Assembly: GCA_013151865.1 (NCBI GenBank)
Contig: JAADHN010000153.1
Location: 3,568-53,418 of the forward strand
Direction of reading: 5' to 3'
Origin: Kiritimatiellota bacterium
GTDB lineage: Bacteria; Verrucomicrobiota; Lentisphaeria; Oligosphaerales; JAADHN01
Length of the DNA: 49,851 bases
The first letter of the stretch is position 1; each line of letters begins with the position of its first letter. The notes beneath the pieces were generated by a model. It was not told where the DNA came from. It was given only the letters and a program-made list of their open reading frames with translations, and ran no database searches. Below, piece by piece: positions 32,089-49,842 of this stretch. A program made the position numbers and the translations under genes.

Positions 32089-35000
32089 ATGAAACAAGCC
32101 CTGCTGCGTCCTCGCCTCCCTTTGTGTGTGGCGATCCTGTGTATCTCGGCCGCGGCCGAACCCGTCACCCCGACGCCTTCGGGGCAACGCGCGGTCATGC
32201 GCCTCGACGGCGCCTGGCAAACACGGGCGAATCAAGGCTGGAACTTCGACTTCCCACCGGGCGACGACGGCTGGCAGAACATCGAGGTTCCCTCCCGCGG
32301 CGGGCCGTTTCTCAAGACCTTCAGTGTCTATGACTCGGATATCCGGAAGCTGCTCGACAAGCAGGGCCGGCCCATCGCGGACAAAGCGTCCGCGTGGTAT
32401 CGCCGGAAATTCGAGTTGCCGCCGGGGCGCAGAGCAGGGAAACGCGCGGTATTGCAATTCGAAGGATTGGGCTTCAAGAGCGCGGTCTGGCTCAACGGCA
32501 AACTCATCGGTCGCTCACTGCAGGGGATGATCCGGCTGGATTACGACGTAACCGATGCGCTGCACGACGGCAAGAACGAACTTGTGGTCGGCCTCACCAA
32601 CCGCACGGGGCTGGTGGACGCGCGGAACAACGTGCTGCTTGCCCCGAGCCGCGGCGGTTTTGCGGGTATCTGGGGGCATGTCACCCTTGAGTTGGTCCCC
32701 GATGTCCACGTCGACGACGTGTATGTGAAGACCTTTGTGAAGGCCCGACGAATCGAGTTCGACATCACCGTGACGAACGCACGGCCACTGCCGGTGAATG
32801 TTGCTCCGAGCGTTCTGATTACTGGCAAGAACGGCGTCCCCGAGCGCTTGGTCGAAGCTCCGGTCGTAACGATTCCTGCCGGGGCCGCGAGAGTCGTGCG
32901 TGTCCGCGACGACTGGGTCGCACCGATCCTGTGGTCGCCCGGAACACCCGCCCTGTACTTCGCTTATGCCCGGATTCGGGAAAAGGGCGCGGTCGTCGAC
33001 GAAAAACGCGTGCGCTTCGGGTTCCGTGAGTTCGAGATCCGAGACAAGCGTTTCTACCTGAACGGACGACGGATCACGCTGTTGCGGGACTCGCTGTTGA
33101 CCCCCCCGGGAACCGACTACGCCAATGTGGCGATCGGCGATCCGCGATCCGGCGGCTTCCGGCTCACGGCCCGGCGCCCATGCAACACAGTCCGTATGCA
33201 TATCGGCTTCATCAACCGAAACGTCATGGACTGGGCCGACGAGCTGGGCGTCATGATCATTCCGGAGTTTTCCCCGCCTGCAGTCGCATCGTACCCGCCG
33301 GAAAAGAAAAGGCTTTGGCTGCCCGCATACATCGAGTATGTCAAAGGCATCGTGCGGCAGTACCGCAACCGGCCGTCCGTGGTAATCTGGAACATGACCA
33401 ACGAGACCTACTGGGACAGGATGCCCGACCACCCGGAATACAAAGCAGTCGCACGGGAACTCATCGGCGCCGTGCGTGAACTGGACGCCATCCGACCGCT
33501 TGACGGCGACGGGGAAAACGGTTGGGACGGCCTGCTGTCCATCGTCAATGTGCATTACCCCGAAAGCCAAGCCGGCCCACTACGCGACGAGTTTCCCCAC
33601 TCCGGCCTGGTGGTTCCCAACAACTTCTCGTGGTTGAAAGACAAGGGCGAGAACACCGGATGGCGCACGCGGTTTGTTTGGGACAGGCCACTCATCGTCG
33701 GCGAATACTGGAGCCTGGGCGGTTCGCCGACCAAATGGTGCGCCTTCGCCGGAGAAGCCGCATACGACTGGGAGAAGTGGAGTCGGCAAGACATCAAGTT
33801 CGGCGATGGATATCCCGGGAACCCCTTTGCCGAGGCGGTGATGATCCTGACCGATATCTACCGGCGTCGCGGAGTGGCGGGACTGAATCCGTGGTACGGC
33901 AATCGTGCGCTGGTCATGCCGCAAGTGGCCGTGCGTCGAGTCGATTTCCACCCGAACTTCTTCGGGGGCGAGACAGCTGCGCGCCGCGTGGTCTTGTTTA
34001 ACGAAGGCGAACACGAATACACGTACAGAACGTTCCTTCAGTGCACCCTGAGCACGGCTGCAAGGGGGACACTGTGGCGAGAGCGAATCCCCGTCGTCTT
34101 GAAACCCGGGGAAGTCCATGAGATGGACATTCCCATCCAGTTTCCGCAGGTTTCGGCGCAGGTCGCGGCAACACTGAAAGTGCGCCTGATGTTCTGGGCG
34201 GCCGGCGGCACCCACGAAAAGAGCCGGTTCGAGGAAACGGTTTTCATCCTGCCGCGCCCGTCGCTGGCGGATGTGGACGCCGGTTCGATCATGCTGGTGG
34301 ATGCTTCCGGCGAAACGGCCGCAGCCTTGACCGAACTCGGCCTCAATCTGCAACGTGCAGCCTCCGTGACGTCGGCAGGTTTAAAGAACAAACGCGTCGT
34401 CATCGTCGGGGAAAAGACCGAGTTGTCCCGATTCAAAAACGTCCTCGTCCGCTTTGCCCGTGAAGGCGGACGGGTAATTGTGTTGCGGCAGGACAAATGG
34501 TATTCCCTCGGCTCGGAATTCCCCGAAATCGATGAGAAACACATTTGCAGTCGGACCTGGAAACGCACGTACGACCACCCTATTCTCACCGGCATCGACG
34601 ACCGACAGCTCTCGTGGTGGAGGCCCGACCACTTGGTTGCGGCACGCGCTCTGGTGAAACCCGCCAACGGCCGTACCCGGGTCCTTTTGGACGCGGGAGG
34701 CGTGTACGGGTTGGAGTGGATGCCGCTTGGAGAAACGCCGTGCGGCAAGGGAACGGTCCTTCAAAGCCAGCTGTTCCTTTGTGACCGCGTGGGTGTCGAA
34801 CCTGCCGCGGGATTGTTTCTGTCCAGACTCGTCCGCTATGCCGTCGACTACGTGCCGCCGCCCACTGCTCCGCTGCACGTGTTGGCCGGCGCCAACCGCG
34901 ACGCCGTCGGCCTGCTTCGCACGTGCAACATCGAAATCATCCCGGGACTCAGCGGCCCCTCGGGGCCGTTGTTCGTCGACGCGTCCGCCGATCTGTCCGA

Positions 35001-36774
35001 GGCGGACTTCGCGGGAATCAAAGAATTGTTGGCCGCGGGCGGACGCGTGTGGCTCCACGGCTTCACGCCCGAGACCGCGAACAAGGCGGCGAAGATTCTG
35101 CCGTTCAAGCCGACCCTGCGGGAGTTTGACGACAAGAAGATCCAAGCGCTGGCGCGGCGGGCCGATGCACACATACTGAACGGACTGTCCACAGCCGACT
35201 TTTTTTGGACGGAAGTGAACCTCGGCGCGCGGGCGGGATACTTCGCCGAGGGCAAGCCGCTGGCGTCCATCGGCCGCTACGAACTCTTGCTGCCGACGTT
35301 GCAGTCGGGCCGGAGACTGACCGACCCGGGCGTCCTGACGGAAATTCCCGTCGGCAGGGGCTCGGTGTTGTTCGACACGCTGCCCTGGGAGCGCGCGCTG
35401 GCCACGCGCGGGCCGAGCGTGATGCGTATTGTCAGCGCCGTCGCGGCCAACCTCGGCGCACGCATTCGACCCCGGGTCGAGAAATCCTACCGCTACTTCT
35501 ACCTCGACCTGTCCCAACATGCGAACATGGGCTACTACGATGAGACGCCCGACGACGGCAAGGGCGGCTGGATGGACAGCGGCGAGTCGGACATGTGTTT
35601 CTTTCTCGTCAACCATACCGGGCGGCGCGGGGGGAACGGCCCGCCCGTCCCGGTGGACAAGTTTCCGACAATGAACCGGTTCTGCGGTCGACCGTTTCGA
35701 CTCATCGATCCTGCGAAAAACCACGGCCACGCCATCATTTCGCTGCGCGGCAAGGACCGCCGCCTGAAACTCCCGGACCGCAAAACAGGCATTCCCGTCG
35801 GCAGAAAAGCGGATGTCTTCTGGTTCGCACACGCTGCCGGCTGGGCGCCGAAAGGCAAAGACCCGACACCGGTCGTGGCGCGCTACGTATTCCACTACGC
35901 CGACGGCTCGACCGTGGAGTTCCCGGTGCGCTGGCACAAAGACATCTCGGATTGGTATCATCCCAGCCCCGTGGCGAACGCACAGGTCGCGTGGACGGGC
36001 AAGAACCGTGTCGCCTCGCCTGTCGGCTTTTACGTGACGGAATGGAAGAATCCGCACCCGGACAAGGTCGTGGCATCATTGGATGTCATTGGTGCGTTGG
36101 AGACAACGCAGATTATGCTTTTGGGTGTAACCGGCGGCGTCGAGGCGGGCGATGAAGAGATCGGAAGCGCGGGGCGCCCTTTTGCGGTTTGGGATCCCGC
36201 CGACTACCGGGACGGCGTCCTGCCTTGTCGCGAGTACCCGGCGGCCGCATTCAAACCACTCAAAGACTCCCCGAGCCCGCAACCGGCCCGGATCGGTGAT
36301 GCGCCCGCCTTGCGTTTCACCGGGGCGGAAGGACTGAGCGCATCGCTGGAAAGCGTCGACGAACTGGCGGAGATTGCGCCGTTCGCACTCGATGTCGACC
36401 TGTCGCCCGACGCGACGCCCGACGACTACTACGGCGGCGTTTACCAAGCCATGGAGTACAAGAAGCGGGGCTTCCGTCTCGTGATGAACCGCGGCCTGAA
36501 GTTGGACGTGCACATCTTCGCCGGCCAAGGCCGGAGCCGGACCCTGCGGGGCAAGACCGTTCTTTCCACTCGCGGGCAGTATCATGTTTCCGTACGGTTC
36601 GACGGCGACAACGCCATGTTGTTCGTCAACGGCAAGCTGGACGCCGCCACGCGTTCGCCGCTGCCCGCGACGTACACAGGTCACGCCATTGTCGGTTCCG
36701 CATCCGGCAAAGGCGGCTACCACTTCAAAGGCCGCATCGGTCGCATCACCCTCTCGCGCCTCGGGAACGAGTGA
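32089..36774 (+). CDS. Secreted multidomain glycoside hydrolase family 2 enzyme
   Basis: A 1561-residue exported protein. A signal peptide (LRPRLPLCVAILCISAAAEP) is followed by a GH2 sugar-binding jellyroll (WYRRKFELPPGRRAG, AVWLNGKLIG), an Ig-like domain and a TIM barrel. The putative acid/base is Glu439 in WNMTNE and the putative nucleophile Glu539 in VGEYW. The middle region has two glutamine-amidotransferase-like segments (near residues 750-830 and 925-1010), as in some beta-galactosidase-like enzymes. The last 210 residues look like a LamG/concanavalin fold (FVNGKLDAATRS). GGGGAG lies seven bases before the ATG. Substrate cannot be read from the sequence. A glycyl radical enzyme gene follows within 50 bases. 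Confidence 0.87.
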   Translation: MKQALLRPRLPLCVAILCISAAAEPVTPTPSGQRAVMRLDGAWQTRANQGWNFDFPPGDDGWQNIEVPSRGGPFLKTFSVYDSDIRKLLDKQGRPIADKASAWYRRKFELPPGRRAGKRAVLQFEGLGFKSAVWLNGKLIGRSLQGMIRLDYDVTDALHDGKNELVVGLTNRTGLVDARNNVLLAPSRGGFAGIWGHVTLELVPDVHVDDVYVKTFVKARRIEFDITVTNARPLPVNVAPSVLITGKNGVPERLVEAPVVTIPAGAARVVRVRDDWVAPILWSPGTPALYFAYARIREKGAVVDEKRVRFGFREFEIRDKRFYLNGRRITLLRDSLLTPPGTDYANVAIGDPRSGGFRLTARRPCNTVRMHIGFINRNVMDWADELGVMIIPEFSPPAVASYPPEKKRLWLPAYIEYVKGIVRQYRNRPSVVIWNMTNETYWDRMPDHPEYKAVARELIGAVRELDAIRPLDGDGENGWDGLLSIVNVHYPESQAGPLRDEFPHSGLVVPNNFSWLKDKGENTGWRTRFVWDRPLIVGEYWSLGGSPTKWCAFAGEAAYDWEKWSRQDIKFGDGYPGNPFAEAVMILTDIYRRRGVAGLNPWYGNRALVMPQVAVRRVDFHPNFFGGETAARRVVLFNEGEHEYTYRTFLQCTLSTAARGTLWRERIPVVLKPGEVHEMDIPIQFPQVSAQVAATLKVRLMFWAAGGTHEKSRFEETVFILPRPSLADVDAGSIMLVDASGETAAALTELGLNLQRAASVTSAGLKNKRVVIVGEKTELSRFKNVLVRFAREGGRVIVLRQDKWYSLGSEFPEIDEKHICSRTWKRTYDHPILTGIDDRQLSWWRPDHLVAARALVKPANGRTRVLLDAGGVYGLEWMPLGETPCGKGTVLQSQLFLCDRVGVEPAAGLFLSRLVRYAVDYVPPPTAPLHVLAGANRDAVGLLRTCNIEIIPGLSGPSGPLFVDASADLSEADFAGIKELLAAGGRVWLHGFTPETANKAAKILPFKPTLREFDDKKIQALARRADAHILNGLSTADFFWTEVNLGARAGYFAEGKPLASIGRYELLLPTLQSGRRLTDPGVLTEIPVGRGSVLFDTLPWERALATRGPSVMRIVSAVAANLGARIRPRVEKSYRYFYLDLSQHANMGYYDETPDDGKGGWMDSGESDMCFFLVNHTGRRGGNGPPVPVDKFPTMNRFCGRPFRLIDPAKNHGHAIISLRGKDRRLKLPDRKTGIPVGRKADVFWFAHAAGWAPKGKDPTPVVARYVFHYADGSTVEFPVRWHKDISDWYHPSPVANAQVAWTGKNRVASPVGFYVTEWKNPHPDKVVASLDVIGALETTQIMLLGVTGGVEAGDEEIGSAGRPFAVWDPADYRDGVLPCREYPAAAFKPLKDSPSPQPARIGDAPALRFTGAEGLSASLESVDELAEIAPFALDVDLSPDATPDDYYGGVYQAMEYKKRGFRLVMNRGLKLDVHIFAGQGRSRTLRGKTVLSTRGQYHVSVRFDGDNAMLFVNGKLDAATRSPLPATYTGHAIVGSASGKGGYHFKGRIGRITLSRLGNE

Positions 36775-36818
36775 GGGATCGCCGCGGTCACGCTTTCTGC
36801 AGAAGGGGTCAGTTAGGC

Positions 36819-39056
36819 ATGGGCACTGGCCGGAATGTTTCGTCGGTCGCGGACTCCGCAGGCAGGGCGTCGAACGATATCGGGCTGCGGTCGCTGGTGC
36901 TGTCGGTCCGACAAGAACTGCTCGGCGCCGAGGACAGCATCTGCCTGGAACGGGCACGCCTGGTCACGGAAGCGTGGCGACAGCACGAGCACGAGCCGGC
37001 CGGCCTGCGACGCGCCCGGGCTTTCGAACACGTATTGCGGCACATGACGCTCGATGTGACGTCGAACCCGATTTTCGCAGGGAACACATCCTCGAAACCC
37101 CGGGCCTGGATGCTCGTACCGGAACACGGCTTTGCCGAACCCGCGCAGGTAATCCACGAAAACGACGGATTGGCCGGCATTCTCCACAGCGGCGTCCCCG
37201 CCGACCTTCGCGATTTCTGGCGGGACCGGTCCCTTGGGGGCAACAGTGACAAGGGGCATTTGGCCGTCGACCTCCACACCGTGGTCCACGTGGGGCTTGA
37301 GGCGCTGATTGCGCGGGTCGACTCTCTGCACGACGCCGGCACTCCGGCGCAACGGGCCTATCGCACGGCCATGCGGATCTGCTTGACGGCGGTAATCGAG
37401 TGGGCCGGACGGTATGCGAACACCGCGGCCCGGGCCGCCCGGACCGCGTCCGATCCGTTGGTCCGCTCCTGTCTCGAACGGATGTCCAAGGCGTGCCGCC
37501 AAGTCCCGGCTCGACCGGCTCGAAACCTGTTCGAAGGGTTGCAGGCCATCGTGCTGGTGCACCTGGCCCTGGCCCTCGAGGGACACGGCATGTCGGTGTC
37601 GATCGGGCTCCCGGACCGTGTCCTGGCACGGTTTGTCGCATCGAACCTGGACGAAACGACGACCACGGCCTTGATCGGTGCATTTATGCTCAAGATCACC
37701 GCAAACTCGGTTTTCGGGCGCGGCTCGAAGACCCAGGCCGTAACAGTCGGCGGCGCCGACGCACGCGGACGAGACTGTTCGAACCGATTGACGCGCTGCT
37801 TCCTCGATGCCGCCGATCTGGTCCGGGTGGGGGACCCGCACCTGTTCCTGCGTTGGCATCCGCGCCTGGCCCCGAGCTTGAAATCCAGGGCCGCCGACCT
37901 GCTGGCAGCCGGCTTGAGTATGCCGCTGCTGATCCACGACAACCCCACCGCCCAAGGTTTCGTCAACGCCGGGGTGGCGCCGGAGGACGCGTGGCAATAC
38001 TGCGTCATCGGATGCAATGAATTGGGCATTCCCGGCCTGGCTGCGGAGTCCGCAAATGCGCGGGCCGGAAACGTGCTGTACCTCGAGATCTTGAATCAAC
38101 TGTTGCTGGACCATCCCTCGCCCGACAGCGTCTCGGACACGAATGCGCTCCTGGACATACTGGAAACTGCCCTGGAGCGCCGGTTGCGAGCCGCCCGGAA
38201 ACATTGCGTCGAGGCTTGGCGCCGCCTGCCGGAGGCGGCGCCTGTGCCGTTCACTTCGGCCCTGATGCACGGCTGCATCGAAGCAGGCGATGACATGGTC
38301 CGGGCCATGAAGTACCGCATCCCGGGCCTGTTCGAGCGGCAATTGACGAACGCGGCCAACGCCCTGGCCGCCATTGACCGACAGGTTTTCCGGGAACGGA
38401 CAGCGACACTTTCGCAACTCGTTGACGCCATGAAGAATGACTACCGCTCCGCGGCGGCCGAGTGCCTGCGACGCAGCCTCCTGACCTCTCCGAGATGGGG
38501 AAACGACGAACCGGCAGCCGACGCTTGGGCGATGCGCCTGCTCGACATGCGCGAATGCGTGCTCGACCGAATCGACCGCGAATTCGGGCACAACGGGCAC
38601 ATCGTCTGCCACGTGGTCCGCAGCCTGCATCATCTGGACGGTAAACGGACCGGCGCTTCGCCGGACGGTCGCCATGCCGGGCGCCCCGTCGCCGACAGCA
38701 TCGGCGCAGGGGCCGGCGAGGCGACCCGCGGCCCCACGGCCGTCTTGAATTCTGTGGCCCGCATCGACGCCTGCACCTACTATCGCGGTGGCTACAACCT
38801 CAATATCACACTCCCCGCCGGGCGGACCCGAGCGAACGTGCTCCTGCCCTTGATCGAAGGGTTCTTCCGGCGCGGCGGCCAGGAACTGCAGGTGAACTGC
38901 CTCGATGCGGAGAGGCTTCGGGATGCGCAACATCACCCGGAACGTCACGGCGACCTGCTCGTGCGATTCGCCGGGTTGAGTTCCAGGTTCGTGGACCTTT
39001 CCCGGGTCGAGCAAGACGAACTGATCGCCCGGGCCGAGGCCATCCCGAATCCCTGA
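36819..39056 (+). CDS. Glycyl radical enzyme (PFL/diol-dehydratase-like), substrate unknown
   Basis: A 745-residue protein of the pyruvate formate-lyase superfamily. The active-site loop YCVIGCNELGIPG supplies Cys399 and Glu401, the G-C-x-E pattern of dehydratase/lyase members; PFL instead has two adjacent Cys. The glycyl radical loop near the C-terminus is VRFAGLSSRFVDL with Gly719; the usual aromatic after Gly is Leu. The start is the ATG at 36819 preceded by AAGGGG. A GTG at 36771 overlapping the GH2 stop would add 16 residues. No radical-SAM activating enzyme is encoded in the window. Context with a secreted GH2 enzyme suggests a sugar-derived substrate, but this is inference. Confidence 0.85.
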   Translation: MGTGRNVSSVADSAGRASNDIGLRSLVLSVRQELLGAEDSICLERARLVTEAWRQHEHEPAGLRRARAFEHVLRHMTLDVTSNPIFAGNTSSKPRAWMLVPEHGFAEPAQVIHENDGLAGILHSGVPADLRDFWRDRSLGGNSDKGHLAVDLHTVVHVGLEALIARVDSLHDAGTPAQRAYRTAMRICLTAVIEWAGRYANTAARAARTASDPLVRSCLERMSKACRQVPARPARNLFEGLQAIVLVHLALALEGHGMSVSIGLPDRVLARFVASNLDETTTTALIGAFMLKITANSVFGRGSKTQAVTVGGADARGRDCSNRLTRCFLDAADLVRVGDPHLFLRWHPRLAPSLKSRAADLLAAGLSMPLLIHDNPTAQGFVNAGVAPEDAWQYCVIGCNELGIPGLAAESANARAGNVLYLEILNQLLLDHPSPDSVSDTNALLDILETALERRLRAARKHCVEAWRRLPEAAPVPFTSALMHGCIEAGDDMVRAMKYRIPGLFERQLTNAANALAAIDRQVFRERTATLSQLVDAMKNDYRSAAAECLRRSLLTSPRWGNDEPAADAWAMRLLDMRECVLDRIDREFGHNGHIVCHVVRSLHHLDGKRTGASPDGRHAGRPVADSIGAGAGEATRGPTAVLNSVARIDACTYYRGGYNLNITLPAGRTRANVLLPLIEGFFRRGGQELQVNCLDAERLRDAQHHPERHGDLLVRFAGLSSRFVDLSRVEQDELIARAEAIPNP

Positions 39057-39164
39057 TCCCCAAGCTCTCGCAGTCGCACCCATTGAATGCGCGCACAGGC
39101 CGTGCACTTGTCGTGAAGGGGAACGGTCTCCGAAGCCGTGCCCTCCGGAAAGCGACGCCGGAGG

Positions 39165-40085
39165 TCAACCGGCGTGGTAAACATGCCGAGCCGAGGATTT
39201 GAAGAGCAGGAGGGTGAAACCGAGAATCAATAGAAACAAGACCCAGGCCAGGGCGCAGGCGTAGCCCATTTTGAAGTCGGCAAAGGCCACGTTGAACAGG
39301 TAGAGGGAATAGAAGAGGGTCGAGTCGACCGGCCCACCGGTGCCGCGGGTCATCACGTAGGCGGGAGTGAAGAACTGGAACGCACCGATCAACCCCATGA
39401 TGAAAACAAACAGGATCTGGGGGCTGATGAACGGCAGTGTGATATGTCGAAGCCGGTGCAGGACGCCGGCGCCGTCCACCTCCGCGGCTTCGCGGAGTTC
39501 GCGCGGCACGTCCTGAAGAGCTGCGAGAAAGATGACCACCGATCCGCCCACACCCCACAAACTCCAGAGCACGATGGCCGGCTTGGCCCAGAGCGGATCG
39601 GCGAACCAGCCGGGCGGCTCCCCGAGGTGCAGGAAGGCGAGGATCGGGCGCAGGATGGCGTTGATCGCGCCATTCTGGGGGTTGAAGAGCCAGACCCACA
39701 AGACGGAGCCGGCCACCAGCGGCACGATGGACGGCACATAGAAAAACGTCCGGTACAGGGCTTGGCCCCGGATCTTCAGGTTCAAGAGCAAAGCCAATCC
39801 GAGAGCTGTAACGATTCCGAGCGGTACGGCCAGAGCGGCAAAGTACAACGTGTTCCAAAGTGCTTTCCAGAACAGATTGTCCTGAAGAAGGTTTGAGTAA
39901 TTTGCCGGGCCGACCCACACCGGCGGTTTCATCACACTGTAGCGGGTGAAGGAGTAATAGAACGACGCCGTGATCGGGTAGAGTGTGAAAAAGACCAACC
40001 CCAGGATCGCCGGTGCACAGAAGGCGAGCCCCAGGATGGTTCGGCGGCGCGCCGCCGGCGACCTGCGGGCGTTCATGGTGGTCAT
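39165..40085 (-). CDS. Carbohydrate ABC transporter permease (MalF/UgpA type)
   Basis: A 306-residue inner-membrane protein with six predicted helices. The N-terminus (AFCAPAILGLVFFTLYPI) is followed by the coupling-loop EAA motif EAAEVDGAGVLHRLRHITLPF, typical of CUT1 sugar importers. The ATG at 40085 overlaps the stop of the binding-protein gene as ATGA, preceded by GAGGGGA. Normally a second MalG-type permease follows, but the next gene is on the opposite strand and converges. The partner permease and ATPase must be elsewhere. Confidence 0.9.
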   Translation of the reverse strand: MTTMNARRSPAARRRTILGLAFCAPAILGLVFFTLYPITASFYYSFTRYSVMKPPVWVGPANYSNLLQDNLFWKALWNTLYFAALAVPLGIVTALGLALLLNLKIRGQALYRTFFYVPSIVPLVAGSVLWVWLFNPQNGAINAILRPILAFLHLGEPPGWFADPLWAKPAIVLWSLWGVGGSVVIFLAALQDVPRELREAAEVDGAGVLHRLRHITLPFISPQILFVFIMGLIGAFQFFTPAYVMTRGTGGPVDSTLFYSLYLFNVAFADFKMGYACALAWVLFLLILGFTLLLFKSSARHVYHAG

Positions 40086-47302: not shown

Positions 47303-47539
47303 TCACACTGTCGAGTCAGGCGCCGAACCGATCCCAGAAGACGCCAGGATCTCGCGGTACTCGGCCACATCCTCCTCGGACCATTTGCGAATGGCGAAAC
47401 CCGCGTGCAGGAGGACGTAATCCCCAACCGCCGGGGCCTCGATGAAGGCCACGTTCGCCGTGCGCCGAATGCCGTCGATGTCCACCAGCGCTTCGGTATC
47501 GTGTAATTCGATGATCTTTGCGGGAACTGCCAGACACAT
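47303..47539 (-). CDS. hypC: [NiFe]-hydrogenase maturation chaperone HypC
   Basis: A 78-residue protein beginning MCLAVPAKI, the signature in which Cys2 binds the Fe(CN)2CO fragment during [NiFe]-hydrogenase assembly. The OB-fold body includes ALVDIDGIRRTANVAFI and VGDYVLLHAGFAI. The ATG at 47539 was chosen because Cys must follow the initiator Met; a much longer frame upstream overlaps hypF out of phase. It starts 14 bases after the hypF stop, so the two are one unit. Confidence 0.95.
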   Translation of the reverse strand: MCLAVPAKIIELHDTEALVDIDGIRRTANVAFIEAPAVGDYVLLHAGFAIRKWSEEDVAEYREILASSGIGSAPDSTV

Positions 47540-47553
47540 GAGAACGTGCCCCG

Positions 47554-49842
47554 TTAGTGTTTCAACGTGTGCTCGGCCAACGCCACAGCAGCCTGGCCAT
47601 AACATACCCCGGCATCGTTCGGCGGCACCTGCCGGTGGCGCCAAATGCGAAAACCCGCCGTCGCGAGCGCTTCGGTCGTCCACCCCGTGAGCAGTGAATT
47701 CTGAAAAACACCGCCCGAGAGGACGACTTCCTCCAAGCCGGTCTGTTCCCGCAGCATCGAACAAGTACGCACCACGGCTCCGGCCACCGTAGCATGAAAC
47801 AGCGCGGCCATTTCGCGGATGTCGGCCCCGGTGCGCCGGGCCCGGACGAGTCGTCGGACCAGCGGCGCAAAAGAAACCACCGCGACCTCGGAGCCGGTCG
47901 CGAGTTCCACGGGCGCCGGAGCGGGGCGGACCCCGGCACGTTCGGCCGCCGTCTGCAATCGGATGGCCGCCTGCCCTTCGTAGGTAATTGTATCGCAAAG
48001 GCCCAAAAGTGCGGAAACCGCATCGAACAGGCGACCCGCGCTCGAGGTGTTCGGAGACCGATGCGAAACCCGCAGGACCTGCAGCAACACGGCCCGGTCT
48101 TTCTCGTTCAGCCCCGGAAGCAGTTCCGCGGCGAGGCGGGCGCCCTCGTCCGAACCGAATGCAGCGACCAGCAAGCTCAAGGCAATACGGACCGGATGCT
48201 TTACTGCCGCGTCCCCGCCCGGCAGCCGCAGCCACTCGAAACGTGCCGCACGCCGGTACGAGGCCAGAGAGGCTTCGAGAAATTCGCCGCCCCAAACCGT
48301 GCCGTCCGGTCCGTACCCGGTACCGTCCAGAGCGACTCCGATGGCCGGGCCCTGACGCCCGTTCTCCGCCAAGCAGGCGGCAATATGGGCATGGTGATGT
48401 TGCACCCCGAGCAGGGGCGCCAGGCGGACCCTGCGGGCAAACCGAGTAGAGAGATAGTCCGGATGCAAATCGTGAGCGACGACCGCGGGCCGGACCCCGA
48501 GCAGGGCCACCAGATCCCGAACCGCCGACTCGTAGAACCGGCAGGCGGCCCATTCGGTCAGGTCTCCCACATGCTGGGAGAGAAAGGCGTCGCTGTCGCG
48601 CGTAACGCAAAACGTGTTCTTCAGCTCCGCACCGCACGCCAGGACGGCCGCGCCGGTCACCGGCAGTTTCACCGGGGTGGGAACATACCCCCTGGAACGG
48701 CGGATCGGAAACGGGGCGCCCGCGGCGAACATTACGACAGAGTCATCGCAGCGACGGACGATGGGGCGGTCGTGGTCCAGGGCGAAATGCGCTGCCCGCC
48801 CCAAAATGTCGGGCACGAGTTCCGCGAAATCGGAGATGATGGGCTCCTCGGTCCGGTTGGCACTGGTCATTACCAGGGGACCGATCTCACGCAGGAGCAG
48901 CAAGTGCACGGGCGTATAAGGCAGAAAAACACCCACGTCGTCCGTGTCGGGCGAAATCAGGGGGCTCAAGGTCGAGTTCGGCCGTCGCGGCAGAATGACG
49001 ATGGGGTGCGCGGGCCGTTCCAGAAACGCCTCGATCTCCGGGGTGGTCCGACAGTGATTTCGCACTTGTTCGACCGAGGAAAACATGACGGCCAGTGCTT
49101 TGTGCGGACGCGCCTTGTCCCTGCGCAACCGCTCCACGGCTTGACTGTCGTCGGCTCGGCAGGCCAAGTGAAAACCGCCCAGACCCTTGACGGCCACGGT
49201 GTGACCCCGCTCGAGTAATCGTGCGGTCTCCGCAATGGGGTCCCCGGGCACTTCGCCCCCGCGCTCGTCCCGGAGGGTCAATCGCGGACCGCAGGCCGCG
49301 CACGCGTTGGGCTGGGCATCGAAGCGTCGGTCCCGCGGGTCCGTGTACTCCGCTTCGCAAGCCCGACACATGGGGAACCCGACCATGGACGTCCGGAGAC
49401 GATCATACGGCAGGGACCGAATGATGGTGAAACGGGGACCGCAGTTGGTGCAGTTAATGAAGGCGTATCGGTATCGCCGGTCAGCCGGATCGAACAGTTC
49501 CCGACGACAGTCGCCGCAAGTGGCCAAGTCGGGCGGCATCCCGGCCGCCACATCGCCGGAGCGCTCGCTCCGGCTGATGACGAAAAGCCCGGCGTCGCCC
49601 CTCACCGGAACCTCCCGGGCCTCGAGGGCATCGATGCGCGCTTGGGGCGGCGGCGCCTGCCGCAGGCGCACCAGGAATTGCCGAACCCGCGCCGGCGGAC
49701 CCTCGACCTCGATGATGACTCCGGAAAGCGCGTTCAGGACAAAGCCCGACAATCCCGCCTCGACGGCGTATCGATACACGGTGGGGCGAAAGCCCACTCC
49801 CTGGACGCAACCCCGGACCTCAATGTGCATTCGCTTGTTCAT
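47554..49842 (-). CDS. hypF: Carbamoyltransferase HypF for hydrogenase cyanide ligands
   Basis: A complete 762-residue enzyme that makes the carbamoyl-AMP and thiocarbamate from which the CN ligands of [NiFe]-hydrogenases derive. Domains in order: acylphosphatase (RGCVQGVGFRPTVYRYA), paired zinc fingers (CGDC, CTNC, CRAC, CAAC, residues about 110-190), a YrdC-like domain (VAVKGLGGFHLACRA, HKALAVMF, MTSANRTEEP) and a Kae1-like domain with VQHHHAHIA near residue 480 and VLSGGVFQN. Only nine bases of the window precede the ATG, so its upstream neighbour is unknown. hypC follows; hypD and hypE are not in the window. Confidence 0.96.
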   Translation of the reverse strand: MNKRMHIEVRGCVQGVGFRPTVYRYAVEAGLSGFVLNALSGVIIEVEGPPARVRQFLVRLRQAPPPQARIDALEAREVPVRGDAGLFVISRSERSGDVAAGMPPDLATCGDCRRELFDPADRRYRYAFINCTNCGPRFTIIRSLPYDRLRTSMVGFPMCRACEAEYTDPRDRRFDAQPNACAACGPRLTLRDERGGEVPGDPIAETARLLERGHTVAVKGLGGFHLACRADDSQAVERLRRDKARPHKALAVMFSSVEQVRNHCRTTPEIEAFLERPAHPIVILPRRPNSTLSPLISPDTDDVGVFLPYTPVHLLLLREIGPLVMTSANRTEEPIISDFAELVPDILGRAAHFALDHDRPIVRRCDDSVVMFAAGAPFPIRRSRGYVPTPVKLPVTGAAVLACGAELKNTFCVTRDSDAFLSQHVGDLTEWAACRFYESAVRDLVALLGVRPAVVAHDLHPDYLSTRFARRVRLAPLLGVQHHHAHIAACLAENGRQGPAIGVALDGTGYGPDGTVWGGEFLEASLASYRRAARFEWLRLPGGDAAVKHPVRIALSLLVAAFGSDEGARLAAELLPGLNEKDRAVLLQVLRVSHRSPNTSSAGRLFDAVSALLGLCDTITYEGQAAIRLQTAAERAGVRPAPAPVELATGSEVAVVSFAPLVRRLVRARRTGADIREMAALFHATVAGAVVRTCSMLREQTGLEEVVLSGGVFQNSLLTGWTTEALATAGFRIWRHRQVPPNDAGVCYGQAAVALAEHTLKH

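Follow-up and report, generated by a model that had tools for sequence, protein, structure and literature searches.

The gene under study, which lies in a window of 49.9 kb (the whole stretch of DNA that was analysed), encodes a real, functional-looking and oxygen-sensitive glycyl radical enzyme (GRE) of an undescribed subfamily of the eliminase type. From its sequence, we propose that the protein is a cytosolic radical dehydratase of a GCNEL/CHVVRS subfamily, that its substrate bears both a hydroxyl and an anionic group and that the enzyme is activated in trans; we put the probability of this reading at roughly 0.5. The features concerned are listed in Table 1.

Table 1. Window positions of the GRE gene, its upstream neighbour and the active-site codons
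Feature	Position	Strand	Basis
Glycyl radical enzyme (GRE), 745 aa, GCNEL/CHVVRS subfamily	36819..39056	+	ORF, Pfam domains, motif alignment, tree
Secreted GH2-like protein (1561 aa), ending 44 bases before the GRE	32089..36774	+	GH2 domains, signal-peptide-like N-terminus
His147 codon, equivalent of GDH His164 / HypD His160	37257..37259	+	Alignment; invariant in nine sequences
Lys304-Thr305 codons, Thr at a usually aromatic position (GDH Tyr339, HypD Phe340)	37728..37733	+	Alignment
Cys399-Asn400-Glu401-Leu402 codons, predicted thiyl Cys and CxE glutamate	38013..38024	+	Arithmetic from residue numbering; invariant in nine sequences
CHVVRS (597-602) codons, Arg601 at the HypD Thr645 / IslA Phe682 substrate-contact position	38607..38624	+	Alignment, PMC8473560
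Gly719 codon, predicted glycyl radical site, loop RFAGLSSR	38973..38975	+	Aligned with GDH Gly763

The reading frame is open from its ATG to the stop codon, and a GTG 48 bases upstream of this ATG is an alternative possible start. Against Pfam, the protein matched the PFL-like domain with 282 bits and the Gly_radical domain with 59 bits, both far above the cut-off, and it has the catalytic Cys and the radical Gly, which together place it in the GRE superfamily. The first-pass annotation had expected a radical enzyme on the basis of Cys399, Glu401 (G-C-N-E) and Gly719. All three are found at these positions; together with Asn400 and Leu402 they were invariant in seven homologues, and they remained so in nine sequences, when a member from genome G272 and a sister protein were added. 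Third codon positions diverged by 53–67% as against 21–35% for second positions, which indicates purifying selection on the GRE gene.

Searches with the NCBIfam equivalog models assigned the protein to no characterised family. The best model, TIGR01774 (PFL2/glycerol dehydratase subfamily), scored 307 bits against a cut-off of 678, and the scores were 219 (cut-off 1050) for choline trimethylamine-lyase (CutC), 186 (cut-off 1100) for trans-4-hydroxyproline dehydratase (HypD), 263 and 219 (cut-off 1000) for the (2S)-3-sulfopropanediol dehydratases HpfG/HpsG and 62 (cut-off 994) for pyruvate formate-lyase (PFL). The best relatives in the PDB were the coenzyme B12-independent glycerol dehydratase (GDH), a ‘glycyl radical protein’ (9rco), the corresponding propanediol dehydratase (PDH) and CutC, and a profile of the clade likewise scored higher against solved eliminase structures (CutC 346, GDH 335, PDH 322, PflD 316 and YbiW 306 bits) than against BSS (243), HPAD (147) and PFL (77). 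In a tree of 60 GRE sequences, the window protein formed a clade (support 1.0, stem 0.74) with five proteins of its own order and a protein encoded by an Armatimonadia metagenome-assembled genome (MAG); the Lentisphaeria protein L063 was sister to this clade (support 0.998). GDH, PDH, CutC, PflD, YbiW and HypD, with which the protein shares 23–27% identity, were placed elsewhere in the tree. Thus, the unclear subfamily noted at first pass stands, and a clustering with glycerol dehydratase or choline lyase, which would have spoken against it, was not seen. An eighth member of the clade, with 48% identity, was found in G272, which belongs to another family of the same class. In an even sampling of 388 genomes across the phylum, only three, counting the host, gave a strong match, so the clade is rare. 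L063 (181–2646; G009 C572) is a second GCNEL/CHVVRS GRE in the genome G009 and is 34% identical to the window protein; therefore, two or more branches exist within the subfamily. Our literature searches found no description of this subfamily or of a GRE expansion in Lentisphaeria.

Residue equivalences were taken from sequence alignment at 23–27% identity, and an AlphaFold model based on four sequences (pLDDT 51) was too poor for geometry. The window protein has the CxE motif (C399-N400-E401), the conserved feature of GRE eliminases (PMC8473560). Ser259 aligns with GDH Ser282, and Met258 with GDH His281 and HypD Asp278; for GDH Asp447, the alignment gives no clear equivalent (Glu410 or Asn413). 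All eight clade members have GCNELG[IV]PG, SKTQ, CHVVRS and a glycine loop of the form R[FVI][AS]G[LF], and GCNEL, Thr305-Gln306 and CHVVRS are found in the sister L063 as well. Thr305 stands at a position where an aromatic residue is typical (PMC8473560). Arg601 aligns with HypD Thr645, which donates a hydrogen bond to the substrate and corresponds to IslA Phe682 (PMC8473560). Both Arg601 and Thr305 were invariant in the nine sequences, and among the 60 GREs compared, none outside the clade and its sister has Arg at position 601. Lys304 is present in all eight clade members and absent from L063. The invariant Arg601, absent from the other references and paralogues compared, appears to be the main new feature of the clade, and this Arg at a substrate-contact position is why we propose that the substrate is anionic.

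The first-pass annotation had regarded the GCNELGIPG loop as unlike the usual forms. This view was not sustained, given that E. coli PflD has GCVELSIPGR and two other host GREs carry GCVELTIPGK; many Lentisphaeria GREs have the same loop, and we dropped GCxEL as a novelty. As judged from the alignment, the clade is marked out by Asn400, CHVVRS and Thr305 rather than by the loss of Pro, and CHVVRS is the better signature. Some other GREs of the order have no CxE: the C15 gene of the host (L059 6725–9013) has GCHWTCLPG, and three related proteins (L066, L074 and L015) have SCMGL..PG-type loops. Their loops suggest a chemistry outside the eliminase class.

We also looked for the enzyme that would generate the radical. 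No activase-family radical SAM gene was found in the window or on its contig, and none was found in the available flanks (5.6–49.9 kb) of any of the eight clade members (0/8), so that the absence of a nearby activase pointed out at first pass is borne out and extends to the whole clade as sampled. The canonical GRE–activase gene pair was thus seen at none of these loci, as far as their flanks were available. Searching the genome for orphan activases, as had been suggested, revealed two activases that score above the TIGR02494 cut-off, as against 9 GREs; both activases lie off the contig of the window. One, C146, lies directly before its own GRE. The other, C175 (L052 6915–7886), has two ferredoxin-like cluster motifs, lies beside a Sel1-repeat gene and is an orphan activase: the 15-kb stretch that holds it contains no GRE. 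When the genome was searched with the PflA model, these two again ranked at the top, with none above the cut-off. Given the two activases elsewhere in the genome, the window GRE is not necessarily left unactivated.

A surplus of GREs is common to the related genomes. Counting only activases above the cut-off and joining fragments, the numbers of GREs and activases were 24/4 in G001, 17/4 in G004, 9/2 in G007, 19/5 in G008, 13/3 in G009, 12/5 in G013, 11/3 in G014, 10/1 in G017, 7/1 in G019, 17/2 in G022, 19/3 in G025 and 6/3 in G272. G013, which has one further activase just below the cut-off, is closed into a single contig; therefore, the surplus is more than an effect of fragmentation. C146-type activases occur in all six genomes of the order that have a clade GRE and are absent from G272, and C175-type activases occur in five of these six and in G272, being absent from G014. 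Because the clade loci have no local activase and GREs outnumber activases even in the single-contig genome, the economical reading is that a shared activase activates the clade GREs in trans.

The gene neighbourhood was less informative. The first-pass description of the upstream gene as a glycosidase of 1561 residues, secreted and ending 44 bases before the GRE, proved accurate, and its candidate catalytic Glu motifs are WNMTNET and LIVGEY. A scan of 36400–39300 for a promoter and a plus-strand terminator gave zero matches, which is compatible with co-transcription of the two genes. However, a GH2 neighbour is kept beside the GRE in no other clade member examined, so its adjacency carries little information on the substrate, and the link between the GRE and the sugar of the GH2 enzyme is weak. 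The neighbours of the GRE are GH2 and ABC transporter genes in the window, 6-phosphogluconate dehydrogenase in G009, DUF480 in G022, NADH-oxidase-like and metallo-lactamase genes in G001, a ZnuA-like gene, beside the GRE, in G008 and G014, which are congeneric (with fucosidase-like and TIM-barrel genes also present in G008), histidine kinase and GH120-like genes in the Armatimonadia MAG and a sulfatase in G272. Across six further neighbourhoods, the common genes were limited to 6-phosphogluconate dehydrogenase (window, where it lies 4 kb from the GRE, and G009) and the ZnuA-like gene (G008 and G014). As the neighbourhoods differ between genomes, we dropped conserved gene context as a clue to the substrate. 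Two side observations were made here. In the window, HypC-like and HypF-like (hydrogenase maturation) ORFs were recognised by eye, from N-terminal sequences only, at 47303–49842 on the minus strand. In G272, the GRE gene is flanked by two direct repeats of 75 nt (L098 8730–8804 and 10980–11054; 83% identical). These repeats contain the 5' end of the sulfatase gene that follows, which looks as though a duplication had inserted the GRE.

We propose the following mechanism. A radical-SAM activase encoded elsewhere (C175 or C146) would abstract hydrogen from Gly719, and the glycyl radical would pass to Cys399. The Cys399 thiyl would then take hydrogen from a carbon of the substrate that bears a hydroxyl group and is held by Glu401, and water or another beta leaving group would be eliminated with the help of His147 to give an aldehyde or ketone. 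Arg601, on strand beta8, and the nearby clade-specific Lys304 would hold the anionic group (carboxylate, phosphate, sulfonate or sulfate), so that a sugar acid, a sugar phosphate or a sulfo-polyol may be the substrate. The assignment to an eliminase-type reaction class has moderate support: among solved structures, the nearest are eliminases, and CxE, His147 and Ser259 are kept. With these residues, the dehydration of a sugar or polyol suggested at first pass is plausible, whereas the C–C cleavage suggested alongside it is less likely, because both the PFL equivalog and the comparison of the clade profile with PFL gave low scores. More tentatively, the clade may be a new isofunctional GRE family whose beta8 Arg binds an anionic sugar derivative for an elimination not yet described, in bacteria that have up to two dozen GREs and a handful of shared activases.

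Other readings of the same residues were considered. A neutral polyol or deoxysugar dehydratase of the glycerol or 1,2-propanediol type, with Arg601 in a structural role, would retain the conserved eliminase residues and could draw on sugars that glycosidases, the adjacent GH2 among them, set free; near some relatives there are alpha-fucosidase-like and GH120-like genes as well as further genes for glycosidases or sulfatases. We consider this unlikely: the contexts seen are rich in glycosidase genes, of which none is kept beside the GRE across members, and in place of the GDH/PDH pocket residues His281 and Tyr339 the clade has Met/Val and Thr. It has been reported that YbiW and PflD cleave 1,5-anhydromannitol-6-phosphate and 1,5-anhydroglucitol-6-phosphate to 1-deoxyfructose-6-phosphate (PMC12441222). 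A similar ring-opening lyase, in which Arg601 and Lys304 would bind the phosphate, would suit the GCxELxIPG loop that PflD shares with the clade and the Gfo/Idh-type, phosphofructokinase-type, SDR and 6-phosphogluconate dehydrogenase genes 2.5–8 kb from the GRE in the window. Nevertheless, such a lyase seems distinctly unlikely: the clade does not group with PflD or YbiW (25–26% identity), these two have no such Arg and differ in strands beta3 and beta8, and no PTS or fructose-6-phosphate aldolase gene was present among the neighbours scanned.

The long stem branch, Thr305 in place of the usual beta3 aromatic residue and a CHVVRS motif unlike every reference examined could also point to another reaction class, such as a C–C or C–N lyase, a decarboxylase or an entirely new reaction. 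We give this little credence, as the profiles favour eliminases over PFL, HPAD and BSS and as His147 and CxE are retained. Finally, the lack of an activase in any flank might suggest an inactive or decaying copy that is never activated, which is hardly credible for an intact frame under purifying selection with all catalytic residues invariant and with activases present elsewhere in the genome. The anion-binding dehydratase activated in trans is the reading that we prefer.

GREs cleave difficult bonds without oxygen, and whenever a further subfamily has been assigned, a new step of catabolism has come to light, as for choline, hydroxyproline, isethionate and anhydrosugars. The clade offers a testable active-site signature, Arg601 with Thr305, and the wider surplus of GREs over activases, in the host and even more so in G001, makes activase promiscuity open to direct testing.

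We finally compared the window protein with known systems. It shares with GDH and PDH (1r8w and 5i2a) the fold family and the equivalents of His164, Ser282, CxE and the radical Gly, as well as an equivalent of the C-terminal Arg782 of GDH. In contrast, identity is 25–27%, the loop is GCNEL rather than GCVEP and there is no adjoining activase; the protein does not cluster with GDH/PDH, and His281 (to Met/Val), Tyr339 (to Thr; Phe in PDH) and Ser642 (to Arg) of GDH are all replaced in the clade. PflD and YbiW of E. coli have the same His, CxE and Gly positions, but they form a separate clade, and their genes adjoin the PflC or YbiY activases, a partner that the window gene does not have. CutC gave the best solved-structure score for the clade profile, spread over several domains, but has 25% identity and a GCVEP loop; HypD has 23% identity. 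The isethionate sulfite-lyase IslA/IseG is an eliminase that uses Arg side chains, including one on beta8, to hold an anionic substrate (PMC8473560, PMC6453916). We had considered Arg601 as the equivalent of this residue, IslA Arg678, and dropped the idea: aligned through HypD and not with IslA directly, Arg678 corresponds to Cys597, and Arg601 lies four residues later; the profile score was 250 bits. The sister L063 differs in its glycine loop (RVAGFSEF) but has the loop GCNELAIPG, CHVVRS and Thr305-Gln306 in common with the window protein.
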